DNA from: Acidobacteriota bacterium
GTDB lineage: Bacteria; Acidobacteriota; Thermoanaerobaculia; Multivoradales; Multivoraceae
Reading direction: 5' to 3'
Length of the DNA stretch: 41,095 nucleotides
NCBI GenBank assembly: GCA_011523565.1
Contig: WTGL01000229.1
Coordinates: 747 to 41,841, forward strand
The notes beneath the pieces are model-generated. The model had not been told where the DNA came from and made no database searches. It saw only the letters and a program-made list of their open reading frames with translations. Each line of letters begins with the position of its first letter. The first letter of the stretch is position 1. Both the position numbers and the translations under genes were made by a program. Positions 18,738-27,530 of this stretch are shown here, piece after piece.

Positions 18738-20834
18738 ATGCAACTCGAAAGTTCGGAACTGATACGCAACCTCGCCGTCGTCGGACACAACGACGCCGGC
18801 AAGACGACTCTGCTCGCGGGTCTGCTCTACACCGGCGGCGTGTTCAATCGGCAAAACCGGGTCGAGGACGGCAATACCGTGACCGACTTCGACGACGAGG
18901 AGATCCGTCGCGGTATCTCGATCGGCCTCGCCCTCTGCTACACCCCCTGGTCGGACGGTTCCGGTGAGCACAAGGTCAATCTGATCGACTGTCCCGGTTC
19001 AGGCATCTTCGTCCACGAGAGCTGCTCGGGCATGCGCGCGGCCGATGCCGCCCTCCTGTGCCTGAACGCCGCGTCGCCGACCCAGGTCATGGCCGAGAAG
19101 GCGTGGGAGATCGCCGAGGCTCTGGAGCAGCCGGTGATGCTGCACCTGACCAAGATGGACCGCGACAACATCGACTTCGAAGGCTGTATCGCCGAACTGC
19201 AGCAGAACTTCCACCGCATGGCGTTGCCGGTGCAAATCCCCATCGGAGCCGGCAAGGACTTCACCGGCGTGGTCGATCTGCTGAGCCGCAAGGCGTACGT
19301 CTACGACCGCGACGGCAACGGCCGCAGCCAGGCGTCCGACCCGCCGGCCGACCTGCAGGACCAGATCGACGAGTGGCGGAGCCAGCTCACCGAAGCCGTC
19401 GCCGAGAGCGACGACGACCTGATGGAGGCCTACTTCGACCAGGGCGACCTCGACCAGGAGCAGTTGGTCGAGGGGCTGAAGAACGCGATCAGGAACCGGG
19501 CCCTGTTCCCGGTCACCATGTCCTCGGCCGGACACGGCATCGGAAACTCCGCCCTGCTCGACACGGTCGTCAAGGTGTTGCCGTCGCCGGTCGGCGCCCG
19601 GTCGATGCCGGCCGCCGATCTCGGCGGAGAGCCGGTGGAACTCGACCGCGGGGACGGCGCGCCGGTCAGCGCGATCGTCTTCAAGACGATGAACGACCCG
19701 TTCACCGGCCGCATCTCCCTGCTCCGCGTCGCCTCGGGCTGCATGAGTTCCGATACCGGCTACTGGAACCCTCGACGCGAAGAGGCGGAACGCGTCGGCC
19801 ACCTGATGCACATGCAGGGCAAGACCGGCCGTGACGTCCCGCGACTCCTCGAGGGCGACATCGGCGGCGTCGCGAAGCTCAAGAGCAGCGTCACCGGCGA
19901 CTCGATCACGAGCCGCGAACGCCCGCTGAGAATCGACTTCCCCACCCCGCCGGTCGCCGCCATCTCGTTCGCCATCGAGCCGAAGACGAAGGGCGACGAG
20001 GAGAAGATCGGCGAGGCGGTGAACCGGCTGGTCGAGGAGGATCCGAGCCTTCGCGCCGGCCGCGACCCCCAGACAGGGGAGTTCCTGCTCTCGGGCGCCG
20101 GCCAACTCCACGTCGAGATCGCGGTCTCCAAGCTGAAGAACCGCTCGAAGGTCGAGGTCATCCTGCACCCGCCCAAGGTCCCCTACCGCGAGACGATCAG
20201 AAGGACCGCCGTCGGCCACGGCCGGCACAAGAAACAGAGCGGCGGCCGCGGCCAATTCGCCGACTGCACGATCACGATGGAACCGGTCGCCACCGCGGAC
20301 GACTACGAGTTCATCGACGAGATCTTCGGCGGCTCCATCCCCCAGAACTACCGCCCGGCGGTCGAGAAGGGCCTCCTCGAAGCAGCCGGACGCGGCTACG
20401 TCGCCGGCTACCCCGTCGGCAACTTCCGCGTCCGCCTCCAGGACGGCAAGTACCACGATGTCGACTCATCAGAGATGGCCTTCAAGGTCGCCGGCTCCCT
20501 CGCCTTCAAGGACGCCATGGCCAAAGCCGCTCCCACACTGCTCGAGCCGATCATGCAAGTCGACATCAACACGTCCGAAGACTTCATGGGCGACATCATG
20601 AGCGACCTGTCCTCCCGCCGCGGCCGCCCCCAGGGCATGGAAGCCAAGGGCAACGCCCAGATCGTCAAGGCCACCGTCCCGATGGCCGAAATGCTCACCT
20701 ACGCCCCCGCCCTCCGCTCCATGACCCAGGGCCGCTCCAGCTTCACGATGGCCTTCTCCCACTACGACGAAGTCCCCCGCCAGATCCAGGAGAAGATCAT
20801 CGCCGAAGCGAAACGGGCGGAAGAAGAGGACTAG
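18738..20834 (+). CDS. EF-G-like translational GTPase (EF-G-2/FusA2 type)
   Basis: 698 residues, ATG preceded by GGGAG. All EF-G domains are present. The GTP-binding motifs are G1 GHNDAGKTT (16-24), switch I RRGISIG, G3 DCPGS (84-88) and G4 TKMD (138-141). Domain IV carries GGRGQFADC and domain V ends MTQGRSSFTMAFSHYDEVP. The histidine that follows DxPG in canonical EF-G and activates the hydrolytic water is a serine here (Ser88). The overall form recalls Thermus EF-G-2, which also lacks this histidine. It is therefore probably a paralogue with altered GTPase, not the main fusA. The canonical copy is not in this window and is absent from the ribosomal cluster end seen here. Confidence 0.85.
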   Translation: MQLESSELIRNLAVVGHNDAGKTTLLAGLLYTGGVFNRQNRVEDGNTVTDFDDEEIRRGISIGLALCYTPWSDGSGEHKVNLIDCPGSGIFVHESCSGMRAADAALLCLNAASPTQVMAEKAWEIAEALEQPVMLHLTKMDRDNIDFEGCIAELQQNFHRMALPVQIPIGAGKDFTGVVDLLSRKAYVYDRDGNGRSQASDPPADLQDQIDEWRSQLTEAVAESDDDLMEAYFDQGDLDQEQLVEGLKNAIRNRALFPVTMSSAGHGIGNSALLDTVVKVLPSPVGARSMPAADLGGEPVELDRGDGAPVSAIVFKTMNDPFTGRISLLRVASGCMSSDTGYWNPRREEAERVGHLMHMQGKTGRDVPRLLEGDIGGVAKLKSSVTGDSITSRERPLRIDFPTPPVAAISFAIEPKTKGDEEKIGEAVNRLVEEDPSLRAGRDPQTGEFLLSGAGQLHVEIAVSKLKNRSKVEVILHPPKVPYRETIRRTAVGHGRHKKQSGGRGQFADCTITMEPVATADDYEFIDEIFGGSIPQNYRPAVEKGLLEAAGRGYVAGYPVGNFRVRLQDGKYHDVDSSEMAFKVAGSLAFKDAMAKAAPTLLEPIMQVDINTSEDFMGDIMSDLSSRRGRPQGMEAKGNAQIVKATVPMAEMLTYAPALRSMTQGRSSFTMAFSHYDEVPRQIQEKIIAEAKRAEEED

Positions 20835-20882
20835 CCGAAGAACGTCGGCGGCTGCTGCGCGGACGTCGGCGGCACCCGCCTG

Positions 20883-21046
20883 CCGCGGTCCGGGGAGAGG
20901 GTCCCAGGGGCCGCTCACGCTTTCCTGGTGAAAAGGGACTGAGGCGTTCGCTTCGGTCGGCTGCGCTCCGGTTTCGTGTCGGCTCATGAGCGGGCATGGG
21001 CCGTCGCTTGCCGACAGCCCCCTGGGACCCTCTCCCCGGACCGCGG
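20883..21046. repeat. Long imperfect palindromic repeat, copy 1
   Basis: The arms at 20883-20910 and 21019-21046 are perfect 28-base inverted repeats around a 108-base spacer. Inside lie two blocks shared with copy 3: 25 bases at 20948-20972 and 20 bases at 21001-21020, both present there in reverse orientation. The element fills most of the 356-base gap between the EF-G-like gene and the membrane-protein gene. It could fold into a long hairpin in either transcript. No transposase is encoded. It looks like a dispersed non-coding family of the MITE or REP type. Confidence 0.85.
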
Positions 21047-21082
21047 CGGGCTGGAGGTTGTCGGGATGCGTGCCCTCGGTCA

Positions 21083-21190: not shown

Positions 21191-21913
21191 ATGGACATGA
21201 AGTTCGATGCCTACACTTGGCGAGCACGCGTTCTGCCGGTGTACTTCACGGCTGCACCGGCCGTGCTGGCCGTCGCAGCGGCCCTCCCCGAAGGGTTGAC
21301 GCTGCCGCTCGGCGGCGCGTCAGCCATCGTGTTTCTGTCTTTCCCGTACTTCATGGGCCAAGTCGCCTCGGACTTCGGAAAGCGCCGGGAGCCAGCTCTG
21401 TGGGACTCCTGGGGCGGCCCGCCCACAACCCGGTTCCTGCGGCATGACAACGGTGAGGTCAACGCTGCCACCCGCGTGCGGATTCATACGCAACTCCGGG
21501 CGTTGGGGCTCAGGGTGCCTACGGCCGACGAGGAGGAAAGTGACCGCGAGCACGCACTCGTCCTCTACGCCTCAGCTGTTGACGAGCTTCGTCGGCAGAC
21601 CCGTGATTCCCGACGCTTCAATCTCCTCTACAAGACCAACATCGAGTATGGGTTTCGGCGAAACCTGCTTGGATTGAAGCCAACTGGCGTCGCGATCACC
21701 ACACTCGCACTGCTGGTTACGGCATGGTCCCTCTACAGGGGGTGGCATACCGATGGAGTCGTTCCACCAGTATCCCTCATCACCACTCTTCTCAACACCT
21801 GTATTGCACTCGGGTGGCTAGTCGGCGTGCGCGCCAAGACGGTTCGAACCACCGCTGAACGCTACGCTCAACGCCTCCTGGAGGCGGCACTTGACTTGGA
21901 GCCCCGCACTTGA
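21191..21913 (+). CDS. Uncharacterised four-helix membrane protein, partner of the MBL hydrolase
   Basis: 240 residues from ATG 21191 (a second ATG two codons on). Hydrophobic helices lie at about 13-32, 36-56, 164-182 and 195-214. The ~100-residue stretch between the two pairs is charged and probably cytoplasmic. It holds a striking segment at about 70-84, LWDSWGGPPTTRFLRH, and a second, YGFRRNLLGLKPTG, just before helix 3. From memory, similar WGG-P-TTRFLRH proteins exist as uncharacterised membrane proteins; I cannot name a family. The frame is open upstream through repeat copy 1, but the island promoter and the protein start argue for 21191. The next gene overlaps by four bases, implying coupled synthesis. 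Confidence 0.75.
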   Translation: MDMKFDAYTWRARVLPVYFTAAPAVLAVAAALPEGLTLPLGGASAIVFLSFPYFMGQVASDFGKRREPALWDSWGGPPTTRFLRHDNGEVNAATRVRIHTQLRALGLRVPTADEEESDREHALVLYASAVDELRRQTRDSRRFNLLYKTNIEYGFRRNLLGLKPTGVAITTLALLVTAWSLYRGWHTDGVVPPVSLITTLLNTCIALGWLVGVRAKTVRTTAERYAQRLLEAALDLEPRT

Positions 21914-22800
21914 GCATCGTCAAATCCCTTGCCGTGGGAAACGGCGACATGTTCTACATTCGGCACGGCGCAGACAGCTTCTCGGTTATCGACTGCTGTC
22001 TGCCAGATGATCGCGAAGACGAGATTCTTAACGAGATCGAAACTCAGCATGCCAACAAGACGATCCGCCGGTTTATCTCCACCCATCCGGACCAAGACCA
22101 CATATCGGGGTTGGCCAGCTTCGACGATCGCTTCCCCATCGTCAACTTCTACGCCGTCAAGAACGGTGCCACGAAGAGCGAGGAAACCGAGGACTTCAGG
22201 AGGTACAAGAGCCTCCGCGACGACAGCAAGAAGGCTTACTATCTCAAGGAAGGATGCCAACGAAAATGGCTGAACGAGTCGGACGGAGCGCGCCGCTCGG
22301 CAGGTATCAACATACTCTGGCCAATCCTGACCAACGAGGACTTCAAAGCCGCCCTCGAGCAAGCTGAAGACGGCGGAAGTCCCAACAACACCTCGCCGAT
22401 CATCCGCTACAGCCTCAATGGTGGAGCTTCCGTGCTCTGGATGGGCGACCTTGAGACTGACTTCATGGAGGCGGTCGAGGACGACGTCACACTCCAACCC
22501 TCCCACATTCTCTTCGCGCCACATCACGGACGAAAGAGCGGGCGGGTACCCAAGTCCTGGCTGGACAAGATCGACCCCACGATCATAGTCGTCGGACAGG
22601 CTCCCTCATCCGACCTCACCTACTACGACAAGTGGGACACCATCACCCAGAACTCCGCCGGGGACATAGTCTTCGAGTGTCTTAGCGGTAAGACACACGT
22701 CTTCGTGTCGAGTTCGACCTACGCGGTGGATTTCCTTACGGAAGAGTCAGGCGTAGACAACCGACATGGTTGCTACTACATCGGGACTTTCTACACGTAG
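21910..22800 (+). CDS. ComEC/Rec2-like metallo-beta-lactamase-fold hydrolase
   Basis: 296 residues from a TTG that overlaps the previous stop (TTGA). Metal-site motifs of the MBL fold are all present: STHPDQDHISGL (58-68, the HxDxDH form typical of the ComEC hydrolase domain), the second aspartate in LWMGDLE (177-182) and the late histidines in FAPHHGRKSG (202-211). NNTSPIIRYSLNGG before the GD motif also matches ComEC-type enzymes. Unlike ComEC there are no membrane helices; these are supplied by the partner gene. A nuclease or phosphodiesterase acting on nucleic acid or nucleotides is the likeliest activity, by fold only. Codon use is visibly less GC-rich than in the flanking core genes. 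Confidence 0.8.
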   Translation: MSIVKSLAVGNGDMFYIRHGADSFSVIDCCLPDDREDEILNEIETQHANKTIRRFISTHPDQDHISGLASFDDRFPIVNFYAVKNGATKSEETEDFRRYKSLRDDSKKAYYLKEGCQRKWLNESDGARRSAGINILWPILTNEDFKAALEQAEDGGSPNNTSPIIRYSLNGGASVLWMGDLETDFMEAVEDDVTLQPSHILFAPHHGRKSGRVPKSWLDKIDPTIIVVGQAPSSDLTYYDKWDTITQNSAGDIVFECLSGKTHVFVSSSTYAVDFLTEESGVDNRHGCYYIGTFYT

Positions 22801-22935
22801 GCTCCAAGGACCGGGGGCCCAAGCGGATGACCGACGCCACCCGCTATCGACGGCCAGCAGGTAGCAAGCAACCCGGAGGCAGAGCTGCGTCGCGGGCCGC
22901 GAGTACGTCGGAGACGCCTTGGTGCCGTGGCGCGA

Positions 22936-23080
22936 GGGAGAAGGTCTCAGGGGCCGCTCACGTCTTCCCGGTGAAGAGGAAGGAGTGTTCGCCTCGGTCG
23001 GCGGTGCTCCGCCTGGGCGTCGGCTACCAGAGGACGGAGCCGTGGCTTACCCAGGCCTCTTGGGTCCCTCTCCCTCTGCC
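22936..23080. repeat. Degenerate palindromic repeat, copy 2
   Basis: Lies in the 338-base gap between the MBL gene and the methyltransferase, in the same orientation as copy 1. AGGGGCCGCTCACG (22949-22962) and the following stretch with TTCGCCTCGGTCGGCGGTGCTCCG track copy 1 closely with scattered changes. The arms (22936-22953 and about 23056-23073) pair only partly. The rest of the gap (22801-22935 and 23081-23138) shows no gene and no clear promoter. Confidence 0.7.
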
Positions 23081-23138
23081 CATACCAAGTCCATCAGCGC
23101 TTAGAACTGACGGCGGGCACCCTTGCTACCATCCAGCA

Positions 23139-24773
23139 ATGGTCGTGGAGCCCACCCACATATCGACCGCTAGCAGCTTCATCCCTCCTCCGGCTCCGGG
23201 CGAGCGACCTACCGAGTATGCGGATCGCATCGGTGAGTACCACGTCGCCACCAAGTCAGAATCGCACCGCAAGCAGCACGGTCTGTACTTGACGCCTGTC
23301 GCAGCCGCCGACTTCATGGCGGCTCAGATCCAGGCCGCCGGTGACCGCCTTCGGGTTCTGGACCCCGCGGCCGGCACCGGCATCCTTTGTTGCGCGACCA
23401 TCGAGGAACTCGCCAACCGAGACACTTCGCCGAGTTCGGTTGAGCTCGTCGCCTACGAGATAGACGCTGAGCTCACCGAACCGCTGGAAGCCGTCCTCGA
23501 GTACCTCAGACAGTGGTGTCGCGAGGAGCACGAAGTCGAACTCGACGTGCGAATCGAGTCCGCGGACTTCGTGATGGCGCTTGGCGAGGCTCTTCGGCGC
23601 AAAGACAGTCTGATTCCCCCCGAGCCGGACGACGGAGAGTTCGACATCGCCATCTCCAACCCGCCGTACTTCAAGATCAGCAAGAGCGACCCGCGGGCCG
23701 TTCTCGCTTCGACAGTGGTCTACGGCCAACCGAACATCTACGCCCTATTCATGGCCGTCAGCGCGGCCCTGGTCCGCCCTGGAGGTGACTTCATCTCCAT
23801 CACACCCAGGAGCTTCACCTCTGGCCTGTACTTCCGGCAGTTCCGCCGCATCTTCTTCGACCTCGTCCAGCCGACCCTGGTTCACGCCTTCGGATCGCGT
23901 CGGGAGGCGTTCGAACGCGACGATGTCCTCCAGGAGAATGTCATTCTGCGCGGTACCCGGCTGAAGACACCGCCGGACGATCGCCAAGCGCCCCTTGTCA
24001 TCTCAAGCAGCCGAGGCGTTCGCGATCTGGACGAGTCCTGCCGGCGCGGCACGACCCTCGACGCGGCGATCGATCTCGACGACCGCGACCGCGTGCTCCG
24101 GCTTCCCGTGTCCGAGCAAGACGCTCGCGTGCTTGACCTGGTGGACTCGTGGCCCAACACGTTGGCCAGCCTGGGCCTCGGTATATCGACGGGACCGGTG
24201 GTCCCCTTTCGCGCGCAGGATCTGGTCGACCGCGAGGGTCAGGTACCCGACTCGCACGTTCCTCTCCTCTGGATGAACCATGTACGTCCAATGCAGGTCA
24301 CGTGGCCATTGAATCGGCACAAGCCGGAGTACATCAAGCGTCAGGGTGCCGAGAAGCTGCTCCTACCGAACCGAAACTACGTTCTCCTGCGTCGCTTCAC
24401 CGCGAAGGAAGAGGCTCGTCGACTCTCCGCAGCACCCTACGTTGCCCAGTCCATGCCCGTTCCCCAGGTGGGTCTCGAGAACCACCTGAACTACATCTAT
24501 CGACACGCCGGTTCGCTCACGCGGGAAGAAGCGTGGGGGCTGGCGGCGCTCTACAACAGCCGCCTCCTCGACACCTATTTCAGGTGCCTGAACGGGCACA
24601 CTCAGGTCAATGCAACAGAGCTGCGCGCCATGCCACTTCCGGCGAACGACTTCATCGTTGAACTCGGTGAGCGAGTCAAACAACTCGACAACCCGATCGA
24701 CTATCTCGACCCACTGATCGCGGGCATTCTGTCTGCCGACACCTCCCGGAAGTCCGTCGTTGGCCACGGTTGA
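23139..24773 (+). CDS. Type II adenine-N6 DNA methyltransferase (BsuBI/PstI-system type)
   Basis: 544 residues from ATG 23139. An open frame upstream runs through repeat copy 2 and is not counted. The S-adenosylmethionine site (motif I) is LDPAAGTGILC (75-81 core), preceded by KQHGLYLTP as in this family. The catalytic motif IV is AISNPPYF (NPPY 174-177), diagnostic of N6-adenine methylation. The C-terminal half carries the target-recognition region and ends GHTQVNATELRAMPLP. The restriction enzyme gene overlaps its stop by 14 bases. Partner identity suggests the PstI/BsuBI target CTGCAG with methylation of its adenine; this is inference. It protects host DNA from the partner nuclease. Confidence 0.88.
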   Translation: MVVEPTHISTASSFIPPPAPGERPTEYADRIGEYHVATKSESHRKQHGLYLTPVAAADFMAAQIQAAGDRLRVLDPAAGTGILCCATIEELANRDTSPSSVELVAYEIDAELTEPLEAVLEYLRQWCREEHEVELDVRIESADFVMALGEALRRKDSLIPPEPDDGEFDIAISNPPYFKISKSDPRAVLASTVVYGQPNIYALFMAVSAALVRPGGDFISITPRSFTSGLYFRQFRRIFFDLVQPTLVHAFGSRREAFERDDVLQENVILRGTRLKTPPDDRQAPLVISSSRGVRDLDESCRRGTTLDAAIDLDDRDRVLRLPVSEQDARVLDLVDSWPNTLASLGLGISTGPVVPFRAQDLVDREGQVPDSHVPLLWMNHVRPMQVTWPLNRHKPEYIKRQGAEKLLLPNRNYVLLRRFTAKEEARRLSAAPYVAQSMPVPQVGLENHLNYIYRHAGSLTREEAWGLAALYNSRLLDTYFRCLNGHTQVNATELRAMPLPANDFIVELGERVKQLDNPIDYLDPLIAGILSADTSRKSVVGHG

Positions 24774-25734
24774 CGAGGCGCGAATAGTCCTCCGCGGCCT
24801 GGGTATGCCCCCACCGCAGTCGAATGAGATGGCGGGGCTGACCCTGCTCGCACTGTGCGGACTGACGGAGCACGACTCCTGGTCTGGAGCGTCACGCGGT
24901 CGACGAACCGTGACTAAAGGCATCATGGACTACGTCCGCGAGCACTTCGGCGGCGACTACGCCCCCAACACCCGCGAGACGTTTCGCCGCCAGGTACTCC
25001 ACCAGTTCGTACTCGCGGGCGTCGCTGAGCACAACCCCTTCGAACCTGACCTCCCAACCAACAGTCCACGGTCCCACTACGCCATCAGCGAGGCGGCGCT
25101 TCGCGTCGTCCAGTCCTTCGGGACCGCCGAATGGGAGTCGAACGTTACCGCGTTTCGCCGCGACCTAAGCGCTTGGCTCGCAAAGTACGAAGACTCGCGA
25201 TCCCGGAACCTGGTCCCCATTCGGTTCCCCGATGGCCAAGAGGTGCGACTCTCGCCAGGCTCGCACAACGAGCTTCAGAAGGCAGTGATCGAGGAGTTCG
25301 GCCCACGCTTCGCCCCTGGCGCCAACGTCCTCTATCTCGGCGACACAGCCAAGAAGAACCTCCACGTCGACCAGCACCGCCTTCTTGAAGTCGGCCTTCC
25401 GCTCACGGAGCAGGACAAACTGCCCGATATCGTCCTCCACAACCGAGGCCGCGACCGCCTCTTCCTCATCGAGGCGGTGACGTCACACGGCCCGGTCGAC
25501 CGAAAGCGCCTCACCGAGTTCGAGGCGCTACTCGAGTCCTGCCACTCTCAGCCTGTCTACGTGAGTGCCTTCCCAGGTTTCGACGAGTTCCGCAAGCACA
25601 TGAAGGCCATCGCCTGGGAGACCGAAGTGTGGCTTGCCGAGGTGCCGGACCATCTGATCCACTTCAACGGCGACAAGTTTCTCGGGCCGACGTTTGCGGC
25701 AGAACCAACCCGCCGCAGCCAAGCCCCGGAATGA
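24760..25734 (+). CDS. BsuBI/PstI-type restriction endonuclease
   Basis: 324 residues from a TTG start inside the methyltransferase end. The N-terminal ~125 residues look like a winged-helix domain (NTRETFRRQVLHQFVLAGVAEHN). The catalytic domain from about 165 has SHNELQKAVIEEFGPRFAPG, LYLGDTAKKNLHVD and the PD-(D/E)xK-type core KLPDIVLHN (Asp223) followed by FLIEAVTSHGPVDRKR (Glu238). The EAVTSHGPV string is the signature I associate with BsuBI and PstI endonucleases, which cut CTGCAG. The ATG of the KwaA-like gene overlaps its stop (ATGA), so restriction and Kiwa genes are translationally linked. Confidence 0.87.
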   Translation: MATVDEARIVLRGLGMPPPQSNEMAGLTLLALCGLTEHDSWSGASRGRRTVTKGIMDYVREHFGGDYAPNTRETFRRQVLHQFVLAGVAEHNPFEPDLPTNSPRSHYAISEAALRVVQSFGTAEWESNVTAFRRDLSAWLAKYEDSRSRNLVPIRFPDGQEVRLSPGSHNELQKAVIEEFGPRFAPGANVLYLGDTAKKNLHVDQHRLLEVGLPLTEQDKLPDIVLHNRGRDRLFLIEAVTSHGPVDRKRLTEFEALLESCHSQPVYVSAFPGFDEFRKHMKAIAWETEVWLAEVPDHLIHFNGDKFLGPTFAAEPTRRSQAPE

Positions 25735-26303
25735 GTAGGCCAGCCAACCCAGAGGGGCTGCCATTAGGCCGTTTCCTCATGGTGCTCAGCAGTTTCGCGC
25801 CTCTCTTCGTTCTCCTAGCCATACGTGGGATCGGACGTATCCCGGACCTCTACGTGGCTGCCCCCTGTGCCGTCCTCGCAGTAGGCCCCACGCTCTATCT
25901 TTGGTCCCGGGTGCGCCTCGCCAAGAAGAAGGAGAACCGCACCGTCTTCCGCCGCACGGTCGGCCAAGCCGAGGATCATCGTCACCAAGTGCTGGCGTAC
26001 CTCTTCGCCACGCTTCTGCCGTTCTATCGAAGCGATCTGACATCGGCCCGCGATGTGTTCGCTCTCGGCTTCGCTCTTGCGCTGGTCCTCTTTCTCTTCC
26101 TATACCTCAACCTTCACTATCTGAATCTCTGGTTCGTCGCCTGTCGTTACCAGGTGTACACTGTCGTTCCACCGCCAAGCAACAACCCCCTTTCCGACCA
26201 AACACCGTTCGTTCTGATAACGCGCCGCCCCTACCTGCCGAAAGGCCTGACAGTCAGTACGCTGCGGCTAAGCAATACGGTTTACCTTGAAAAGGACACT
26301 TGA
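25731..26303 (+). CDS. kwaA: KwaA-like membrane protein of a Kiwa anti-phage system
   Basis: 190 residues from ATG 25731. Four hydrophobic segments lie at about 15-35, 40-58, 86-104 and 115-140 (ALALVLFLFLYLNLHYL), with a basic loop RVRLAKKKENRTVF between the pairs. The C-terminal tail FVACRYQVYTVV, then PFVLITRRPYLPKG, resembles the cytoplasmic tail of KwaA. Length, helix count and position directly before a DUF4868 gene match Kiwa, in which membrane-embedded KwaA assembles with KwaB and senses phage at the envelope. The call rests on architecture and neighbour, not on a computed alignment. Its stop TGA shares one base with the next ATG. Confidence 0.72.
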   Translation: MSRPANPEGLPLGRFLMVLSSFAPLFVLLAIRGIGRIPDLYVAAPCAVLAVGPTLYLWSRVRLAKKKENRTVFRRTVGQAEDHRHQVLAYLFATLLPFYRSDLTSARDVFALGFALALVLFLFLYLNLHYLNLWFVACRYQVYTVVPPPSNNPLSDQTPFVLITRRPYLPKGLTVSTLRLSNTVYLEKDT

Positions 26304-26497
26304 TGATCGACTTCGATCTACACGCACCGACAACAATAGAGTTCGGAGTCGGTCTTGACACGGAGGATGACCCCCTGTTCGTCCTACTTCCCGCTGACGA
26401 AGATGTCGCTGAGGCACTCATCGATATGGTGCGGACCACGGTCCAACAACTGGAGGAGGAGTCCGAGCCGCGGCCCTATGAACCATCGGAGAAGTAA
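26303..26497 (+). CDS. N-terminal fragment of KwaB-like protein, ended by in-frame TAA
   Basis: 64 codons from ATG 26303: MIDFDLHAPTTIEFGVGL, then LFVLLPADEDVAEALIDMV and YEPSEK before TAA at 26495. Acidic and without membrane helices. The same frame continues after the TAA through SGKEC into the DUF4868 gene at 26513, with no shift needed. With the stop counted as a residue the joined protein is 300 positions, close to KwaB length (about 315). TAA is one base from TAC or TAT, so YEPSEKY was probably the ancestral text. I read this as the broken N-terminus of KwaB, but a stand-alone small protein is possible. Confidence 0.6.
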   Translation: MIDFDLHAPTTIEFGVGLDTEDDPLFVLLPADEDVAEALIDMVRTTVQQLEEESEPRPYEPSEK

Positions 26498-26512
26498 TCG
26501 GGCAAGGAGTGT

Positions 26513-27205
26513 TTGCGAGCCGACCTTGAAGGCGGTCTCGCCACCGTAGTTCACAACCTGCATACAGCCGATAATCTGACACCGGACCCACAAGGTCTGG
26601 CAGCCCCCAAGAAGGTCTTCTGCTATTTTGCCCGGCTCTTCGGCCAGGGCGGCCAAAGCCTCACAGCGTTGAAACGTGCCATCTGGTTCAAGGGGCTTCT
26701 GAAGAGGCCCCTACTACACTGGTTCGACGACGCCTACGGAATCGTAGACGGGCCGCTGTTCAAGCTGGACTTGGACTTCGACATACTGGTGGATTCCCAA
26801 GTCATTCATATCTTGCGGCCGAGCGGCTTCGAGTACGTGGCCCGTATTCAGCGAGAGGTCCTGCAGGCGGTGCCGCAGATCTTCTCCGATCTTCAGGCGG
26901 ACTTGCCTTTCGTGGATCTCTCGAGTGTGGAAGAGTTTGCGAGGGACCGTTCTCAGGCAGCACGCTTGGCCGCTTCCGTCAGGAGCCGCAGGCGAGTCGA
27001 GAACGTCAACCAGATCGCCCTACTCGACCAGTGCGGTCGAACGGACGTCAGAGTTGAGACTGGAGAGAACGGTCGTCTTCGAGTCGCCAAGGGCCACGAA
27101 CTCGGGTTCCTAGAAGTACTGGATCGGCGGCGATACGACGTTGAACTGGTCACTGGCGCGCCCGAGGCGTTTCGCGCTGCAAGTCGCACCAAGATCTCCG
27201 CATGA
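26513..27205 (+). CDS. kwaB: KwaB-like DUF4868 protein (C-terminal part after the in-frame stop)
   Basis: 230 residues if started at TTG 26513, which follows AAGGAG by three bases, so re-initiation after the TAA is conceivable. The body fits DUF4868: KVFCYFARL, LDFDILVDSQVIHILRPSGFEYV, FVDLSSVEEFARDRSQAARL and a final FLEVLDRRRYDVELVTG. In Kiwa, KwaB is the cytosolic DNA-binding effector attached to membrane KwaA. The missing 69 residues sit just upstream in frame, so the gene is either a recent pseudogene, a split gene, or altered by a base-call error. It is the last gene of the island; repeat copy 3 follows after 135 bases. Confidence 0.68.
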   Translation: MRADLEGGLATVVHNLHTADNLTPDPQGLAAPKKVFCYFARLFGQGGQSLTALKRAIWFKGLLKRPLLHWFDDAYGIVDGPLFKLDLDFDILVDSQVIHILRPSGFEYVARIQREVLQAVPQIFSDLQADLPFVDLSSVEEFARDRSQAARLAASVRSRRRVENVNQIALLDQCGRTDVRVETGENGRLRVAKGHELGFLEVLDRRRYDVELVTGAPEAFRAASRTKISA

Positions 27206-27340
27206 TCGTCTCTCGCTCGGTTCGCGACGGCGGGTATCGACGAACCCGTTGTCATGAACGCTCGTGGCGATGGGCGCGACCTCACGAGACTCTAGGGCAC
27301 TCGACGCCACGTCGATAACCGGCGACGTCCAGCCTGCTGG

Positions 27341-27497
27341 GGGCCGAAGGAGGGGGTCCCAGCGGGCTGTCGGCAAGCGACGGTCGACGCCCAATTGTCG
27401 TCCGACGACCAACCGGAGCGCAGCCGACCGAAGCGAGCACCCCCCTCTCATCTACTCAGAAAGTGCGAGCGGCCGCTGGGACCCCCTCCTTCGGCCC
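27341..27497. repeat. Long imperfect palindromic repeat, copy 3 (inverted relative to copy 1)
   Basis: The arms at 27341-27365 and 27473-27497 are perfect 25-base inverted repeats. In reverse complement the element follows copy 1 in order, with exact shared blocks at 27412-27436 (25 bases) and 27364-27383 (20 bases). It lies in the 372-base gap between KwaB and rplQ, marking the right edge of the island. Apart from this repeat and two small hairpins next to rplQ, the gap holds nothing I recognise. Confidence 0.85.
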
Positions 27498-27530
27498 GCG
27501 GCAGGCGGGTGCAACCGACGCCGCCACACT

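Follow-up and report, generated by a model that had tools for sequence, protein, structure and literature searches.

An MBL-fold hydrolase and a four-helix membrane protein as a candidate two-gene anti-phage module in an Acidobacteriota defence island

CBASS operons, whether of the two-gene type I or of type II with Cap2 and Cap3, combine a constant enzyme with exchangeable membrane effectors such as patatins and small TM proteins. The C-terminal Gly/Ala of the CD-NTase is conserved only in operons that also encode Cap2 and Cap3, where it is the conjugation point, and conjugation increases signal output (PMC10097602). A related arrangement appears in the passages of Iyer et al. 2006 (PMC1779556) on row 6a, an operon usually of two genes, E2-E1-JAB and MBL, and on row 6b beside it, which joins E2-E1, JAB and a nucleotidyltransferase and corresponds to today's type II CBASS; read in parallel, the two rows place the MBL in the position that the CD-NTase holds in CBASS. 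The passages of that paper returned by a term search tie no membrane protein to row 6a. NCBIfam describes a 6A-MBL anti-phage system, PADLOC holds PDC-M48 as a candidate, and a literature search found no paper under either name. Further MBL-fold defence proteins are LmuA of Lamassu-Mbl, Avs1a and the DRT-associated MBL, and the competence protein ComEC/Rec2 carries a beta-lactamase-like domain.

Here, we analyse two overlapping genes in a stretch of 41,095 nucleotides from an Acidobacteriota bacterium (the window), encoding a membrane protein with four predicted helices (4TM) and an MBL-fold hydrolase (MBL). A sequence-only reading knew of no named system with such a pair, a view that is not supported, given that the hydrolase is PADLOC candidate PDC-M48B over its full length (PDLC04673, E=1.2e-136, 453 bits, residues 1-294) and that the 4TM family also occurs in 6A-MBL context. 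As in PDC-M48, the gene of a small membrane protein adjoins, but the window's membrane protein is longer than PDC-M48A, carries roughly 100 residues of cytosolic sequence and gives no PDC-M48A match in PADLOC at E up to 1; the 162-aa partners at other loci do match. 6A-MBL operons carry the window's 4TM family beside a related MBL, but the window has no E2-E1-JAB and its MBL belongs to another subfamily, without the glycine-ended tail and below the cut-off of NF058524 (29.8 bits, cut-off 220). No ORF adjoining the pair encodes an E2-E1-JAB fusion (NF058523), and the window genome (88.7% complete) holds only a 31-bit sub-cut-off match to that model, similar to those in 10 of 14 control genomes. 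The constant enzyme with exchangeable membrane effectors recalls CBASS, and the optional E1-E2-JAB module of the MBL family recalls its type II, but the enzyme here is an MBL-fold hydrolase and there is no CD-NTase among the genes adjoining the pair. With the ComEC/Rec2 domain the hydrolase shares fold (Z 24.1, 244 residues) and metal motifs, yet it is a stand-alone soluble enzyme without a competence channel. Likeness to the MBL-fold proteins of Lamassu-Mbl, Avs1a and DRT stays far below family level (26-35 bits, weak, against PADLOC LmuA and RTasMBL), and no SMC, STAND or reverse transcriptase gene adjoins. We found no published phage test of the two-gene 4TM/MBL form.

The gene pair and its proteins

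Both open reading frames of the sequence-only reading are present at the positions given, with the TTGA overlap. The features of the pair are:

21191-21913, + strand: 4TM membrane protein, predicted membrane effector, 240 aa, start ATG 21191, stop TGA 21911-21913 (ORF call, hydropathy, AlphaFold2)
21410-21445, + strand: codons of WGGPPTTRFLRH (residues 74-85), where the conserved cytosolic stretch that separates TM2 from TM3 starts (family alignments)
21641-21685, + strand: codons 151-165, IEYGFRRNLLGLKPT, the most conserved 4TM block (R157 and N158 invariant in alignment A6)
21910-21913, + strand: TTGA overlap, hydrolase start codon atop the 4TM stop codon, kept in a second species
21910-22800, + strand: MBL-fold hydrolase, PADLOC PDC-M48B, 296 aa, start TTG 21910, stop 22798-22800 (PDLC04673, Lactamase_B, ComEC fold)
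22084-22101, + strand: codons of the HxDxDH metal site, H59 P60 D61 Q62 D63 H64 (motif, homologue alignment)
22447-22449, + strand: codon of D180 in the WMGD motif, predicted metal ligand (invariant in 86/86)
22522-22527, + strand: codons of H205-H206 in the APHHGRKSG motif, predicted metal site (invariant in 86/86)

In the 4TM protein, hydropathy places four helices (residues 14-32, 36-54, 159-177 and 195-213), with the cytosolic stretch separating TM2 from TM3; AlphaFold2 predicts an all-helical fold (pLDDT 92.5), in keeping with the four-helix membrane protein first described. The protein belongs to a real family, found in 46 plasmid records and many chromosomes, with the consensus WGGxPTxxxLR ... 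ENIxYGFxRNLxG, in which R157, N158 and Y225 are invariant; within WGGPPTTRFLRH, P78 is nearly invariant in alignment A6 and L83 in alignment A2. Searches of Pfam (E up to 10), PADLOC and NCBIfam returned zero family matches, and on the empty Pfam result at that threshold we rejected membership of S-4TM, SLATT and the other Pfam membrane families. The fold search in the PDB and BFVD gave nothing significant, the top PDB scores being a Foldseek E of 0.41 (ExbB) and a VIA-align Z of 6.6, which is meaningless for a helical protein. Common origin with PDC-M48A was also rejected (hhalign probability only 14% against the 162-aa family).

The hydrolase scores above the Pfam Lactamase_B cut-off, and among solved structures the ComEC beta-lactamase-like domain 9ic4 comes closest to it both by sequence (profile against PDB, E 9.6e-9) and by fold (3.0 A over the aligned residues), followed by phosphorylcholine esterase Pce (Z 20). 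The proposed kinship to the ComEC domain is thereby borne out, as is the ComEC-type metal site, whose H59, D61, D63 and H64 are all present. The motifs read T58-H-P-D-Q-D-H64, W177-M-G-D180 and A203-P-H-H-G-R-K-S-G. Among 86 MBL homologues D61, D63, H64, D180, H205 and H206 are invariant and H59 is kept in 85, a count that the scan patterns bias at positions inside them (the THPD stretch) and leave unaffected outside. That every copy has an intact active site argues for catalysis.

Within the genus, a second species (a Holophagales MAG, G019, the record behind L033) keeps the pair and its overlap, with protein identities of 87% (4TM) and 76% (MBL) to the window. The two genes are therefore not chance ORFs, as the dN/dS of 0.31 (4TM) and 0.18 (MBL) also indicates, which amounts to purifying selection. 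Among 21 genomes of the genus that were searched, just 3 have the 4TM gene, one of them the window genome; the gene is hence an accessory trait. The promoter credited to the pair was not recovered: the upstream scan gave zero sigma-70-like sites, and the stretch TTGAC(G/C)-17-TAGAAC, conserved in the second species, is weak evidence for one.

The window pair sits between an EF-G gene (18738-20834) and rplQ/rpoA, and in the second species it adjoins the same EF-G gene and then the same RM methylase. The defence genes that follow it are:

22770-25734, + strand: type II RM context, BsuBI/PstI type (Pfam/PADLOC)
22770-24773, + strand: Eco57I-type methylase ORF, real start probably further in (Pfam/PADLOC)
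24760-25734, + strand: BsuBI/PstI-type endonuclease (Pfam/PADLOC)
25629-26303, + strand: kwaA of Kiwa (PDLC00218, E=3.1e-63)
26303-27205, + strand: kwaB of Kiwa, broken by an in-frame TAA at 26495-26497 (PDLC00228 matches)

RM and Kiwa neighbours had been named from the letters alone and both are real; what needs amending is that kwaB is interrupted.

Partner exchange and the link to 6A-MBL operons

With the MBL as bait, a genome scan yielded 80 genome loci, spread over many phyla, along with five full-length viral-contig loci. The gene beside the MBL encodes a member of the 4TM family in 29 of these and another membrane protein in 34, mostly the 162-aa PDC-M48A. A third class of 234 aa (L009, L031, L086) aligns to 4TM with an hhalign probability of 95% over 145 columns, on the basis of three sequences. 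A patatin-like phospholipase directly adjoins the MBL at four loci (L057, L059, L085, L109), and additional patatins lie close to it at L012, L027 and L089. It is because phospholipases and other membrane proteins swap with 4TM that we assign the latter a putative effector role. At least 23 partner changes fall on the MBL tree, which is of a quick kind and has some open forks. The closest instance of exchange involves the window: its MBL and that of a Gemmatimonadetes MAG (L026) are 78% identical, and the L026 4TM protein is about 20% identical and stands on the opposite side.

Seen from the 4TM side, in a survey of about 30 loci, the MBL accompanies 22 of 24 plasmid loci and 8 of 8 intact genome loci; the two plasmid exceptions (L146, L150) are remnants beside insertion sequences. 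The two families are thus linked well beyond the window, as had been anticipated. Order and orientation vary, with MBL first, 4TM first, convergent genes (Staphylococcus, L010) or divergent ones (Acinetobacter, L151). No third gene is constant in the MBL loci; some of them do have 6A genes or an additional MBL close by. The phage collection yielded no phage-borne copies, and in IMG/VR five contigs carry the MBL.

Loci of the MBL family sit in defence islands. For 12 loci other than the window, all with long contigs, the 120 genes on the flanks match 165 PADLOC families (1e-20); in the same 12 genomes, 122 genes taken from arbitrary regions match 6. Overlapping models inflate these family counts, and the contrast is still large. 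The suspected enrichment near defence genes is therefore real, and a defensive role for the pair is well supported by genomic context.

The 4TM family partners three MBL subfamilies, 6A-MBL with E2-E1-JAB among them. At many loci the 4TM gene lies downstream of an MBL and an E2-E1-JAB fusion that together are the NCBIfam 6A-MBL system (NF058524 419 bits, NF058523 549 bits), and the family was found inside ten such operons (L002, L004, L006, L007, L014, L016, L134, L141, L143, L149). The published 6A-MBL definition includes no 4TM protein.

The C-termini of the MBLs differ between subfamilies. An exact terminal glycine is present in 11 of 22 6A MBLs, against 2/86 of the window type, 0/17 of MBL-iii and 40/603 of neighbouring ORFs. 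In these 11 the tail that it closes is flexible and commonly reads ...AHG, ...EHG or ...PRAG, and in the remaining 11 the last eight residues hold a glycine with a few residues beyond. Tails with a glycine end are a feature of the E1/E2-containing loci, the pattern known from the CD-NTase of CBASS. By analogy with Cap2 and the CD-NTase, E2-E1-JAB probably conjugates the 6A MBL through its C-terminal glycine, an idea that the glycine-ended tails make directly testable.

Possible modes of action

We infer that the pair defends and that 4TM harms the membrane, and the same applies to the nature of the signal, its chemistry and the direction of control. The best reading, which we hold with even confidence for and against, is a minimal, self-contained, CBASS-like abortive anti-phage module in which the MBL controls a membrane-damaging 4TM effector. 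The MBL-fold enzyme would be the constant core, and 4TM would belong to a set of membrane-damaging effectors that can replace one another. As a metal phosphodiesterase or nuclease of the ComEC type, the MBL would most likely respond to infection by yielding or releasing a small activating ligand, perhaps a nucleotide or oligonucleotide product; this ligand, or the MBL itself, would gate 4TM, which would then permeabilise the inner membrane, so that the cell arrests or dies and phage growth stops. The pair would be an analogue of two-gene CBASS with its cyclase and effector. Neither a ligand-binding pocket nor a signal was identified for the pair. Activation is favoured as the direction of control, since CBASS output rises when the core enzyme is conjugated and since a separate signal source is not encoded.

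A broader proposal, which we offer tentatively and as a possibility only, extends this module to the whole family. An MBL hydrolase in the cyclase's place would cleave nucleic acid or nucleotides and in this way make or control the ligand, opening 4TM, PDC-M48A or patatin effectors, with E1/E2 conjugation as an optional amplifier, and the family would form a third signal-based immunity beside CBASS and Pycsar. If the MBL truly replaces the cyclase, this would be a hydrolysis-based chemistry of immune signalling, with the two-gene form as its simplest version. The comparison also unites PDC-M48, a catalogue candidate, and 6A-MBL, a described system, as a family of MBL-centred defence modules, and it supplies a membrane component for which three family libraries have no model. 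As far as the searched libraries tell, what is new is the membrane component, its occurrence in 6A-MBL loci as well, the exchange of partners and the glycine-ended tails; the hydrolase was already a known candidate.

The direction of control could also be the reverse, with the MBL as a guard or antitoxin-like protein that degrades a host-made ligand or otherwise restrains the effector, so that phage inhibition of the MBL frees 4TM or the patatin. Some MBL phosphodiesterases are known to clear immune nucleotides, and the destruction of an immune signal by one of them, phage Apyc1, counts against the MBL as activator (Apyc1 and YhfI, PMC9117128). Also in favour of a guard, the MBL loci have no constant cyclase, and at L011 a broken MBL frame comes together with a shortened 4TM gene. 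However, the source of the ligand to be degraded is not encoded either, and the MBL stands in the CD-NTase position at 6A loci, where conjugation would, by analogy, raise output and make it an activator. We consider a guard the main rival, unlikely but worth serious attention.

Still less probable is that the effector is the MBL, acting as a nuclease that cuts incoming phage DNA at the membrane, with 4TM as its anchor or sensor. The ComEC beta-lactamase-like domain, its top sequence and fold match, is a nuclease. Replacement of the partner by patatins and by membrane proteins without significant sequence similarity would be odd for an anchor, however, and the two genes may be convergent or divergent. 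The first interpretation of the pair, ComEC split into two proteins that act in or against DNA uptake, has the ComEC type of the MBL domain in its favour and is hardly credible, given that 4TM has no Pfam match to ComEC membrane domains even at E 10, that partners are frequently exchanged for another membrane protein or a patatin, and that the context is one of restriction, Abi, prophage and plasmid genes; we reject the split, and a DNA-uptake-blocking role is likewise not supported.

Further observations on the island and related loci

Several composite loci resemble two units built around one effector. At L085, L089, L136 and L140 a single effector is surrounded by a 6A-MBL unit together with a second MBL, of the window type or the iii type, and at L027 only the E2-E1-JAB gene of the 6A-MBL unit was seen; the effector at these five loci is a patatin or a 4TM protein, as if common to two MBLs. 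The MBL-patatin pairs of L059 and L109 lie within prophage surroundings, P2-like (tail hub gene) and Mu-like (Mor), respectively.

The window MBL is 75-78% identical to those of L026 and L027, the latter a Rhodothermales MAG, both from sample series jk18x9, a sign of recent transfer between phyla. Within the pair, dS differs across the overlapping genes (4TM 0.25, MBL 0.86; window 21191-22797 against L019 1501-3107), suggesting recombination inside it. Both pieces of the interrupted kwaB match PDLC00228 (model 3-66 and 73-299), and Kiwa is probably inactive in the window, unless the base behind the stop is an assembly error.

The defence island is bracketed by a palindromic repeat element:

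20864-21054, no strand assigned: palindromic repeat element, left edge of the island (repeat search)
27329-27520, no strand assigned: inverted copy of the left-edge element, right edge of the island (repeat search)

The element is MITE- or REP-like and about 190 bases long, and its inverted ends measure about 40 bases. A degenerate copy lies at about 22936-23080, and the genome holds about 20 copies at 69-94% identity.
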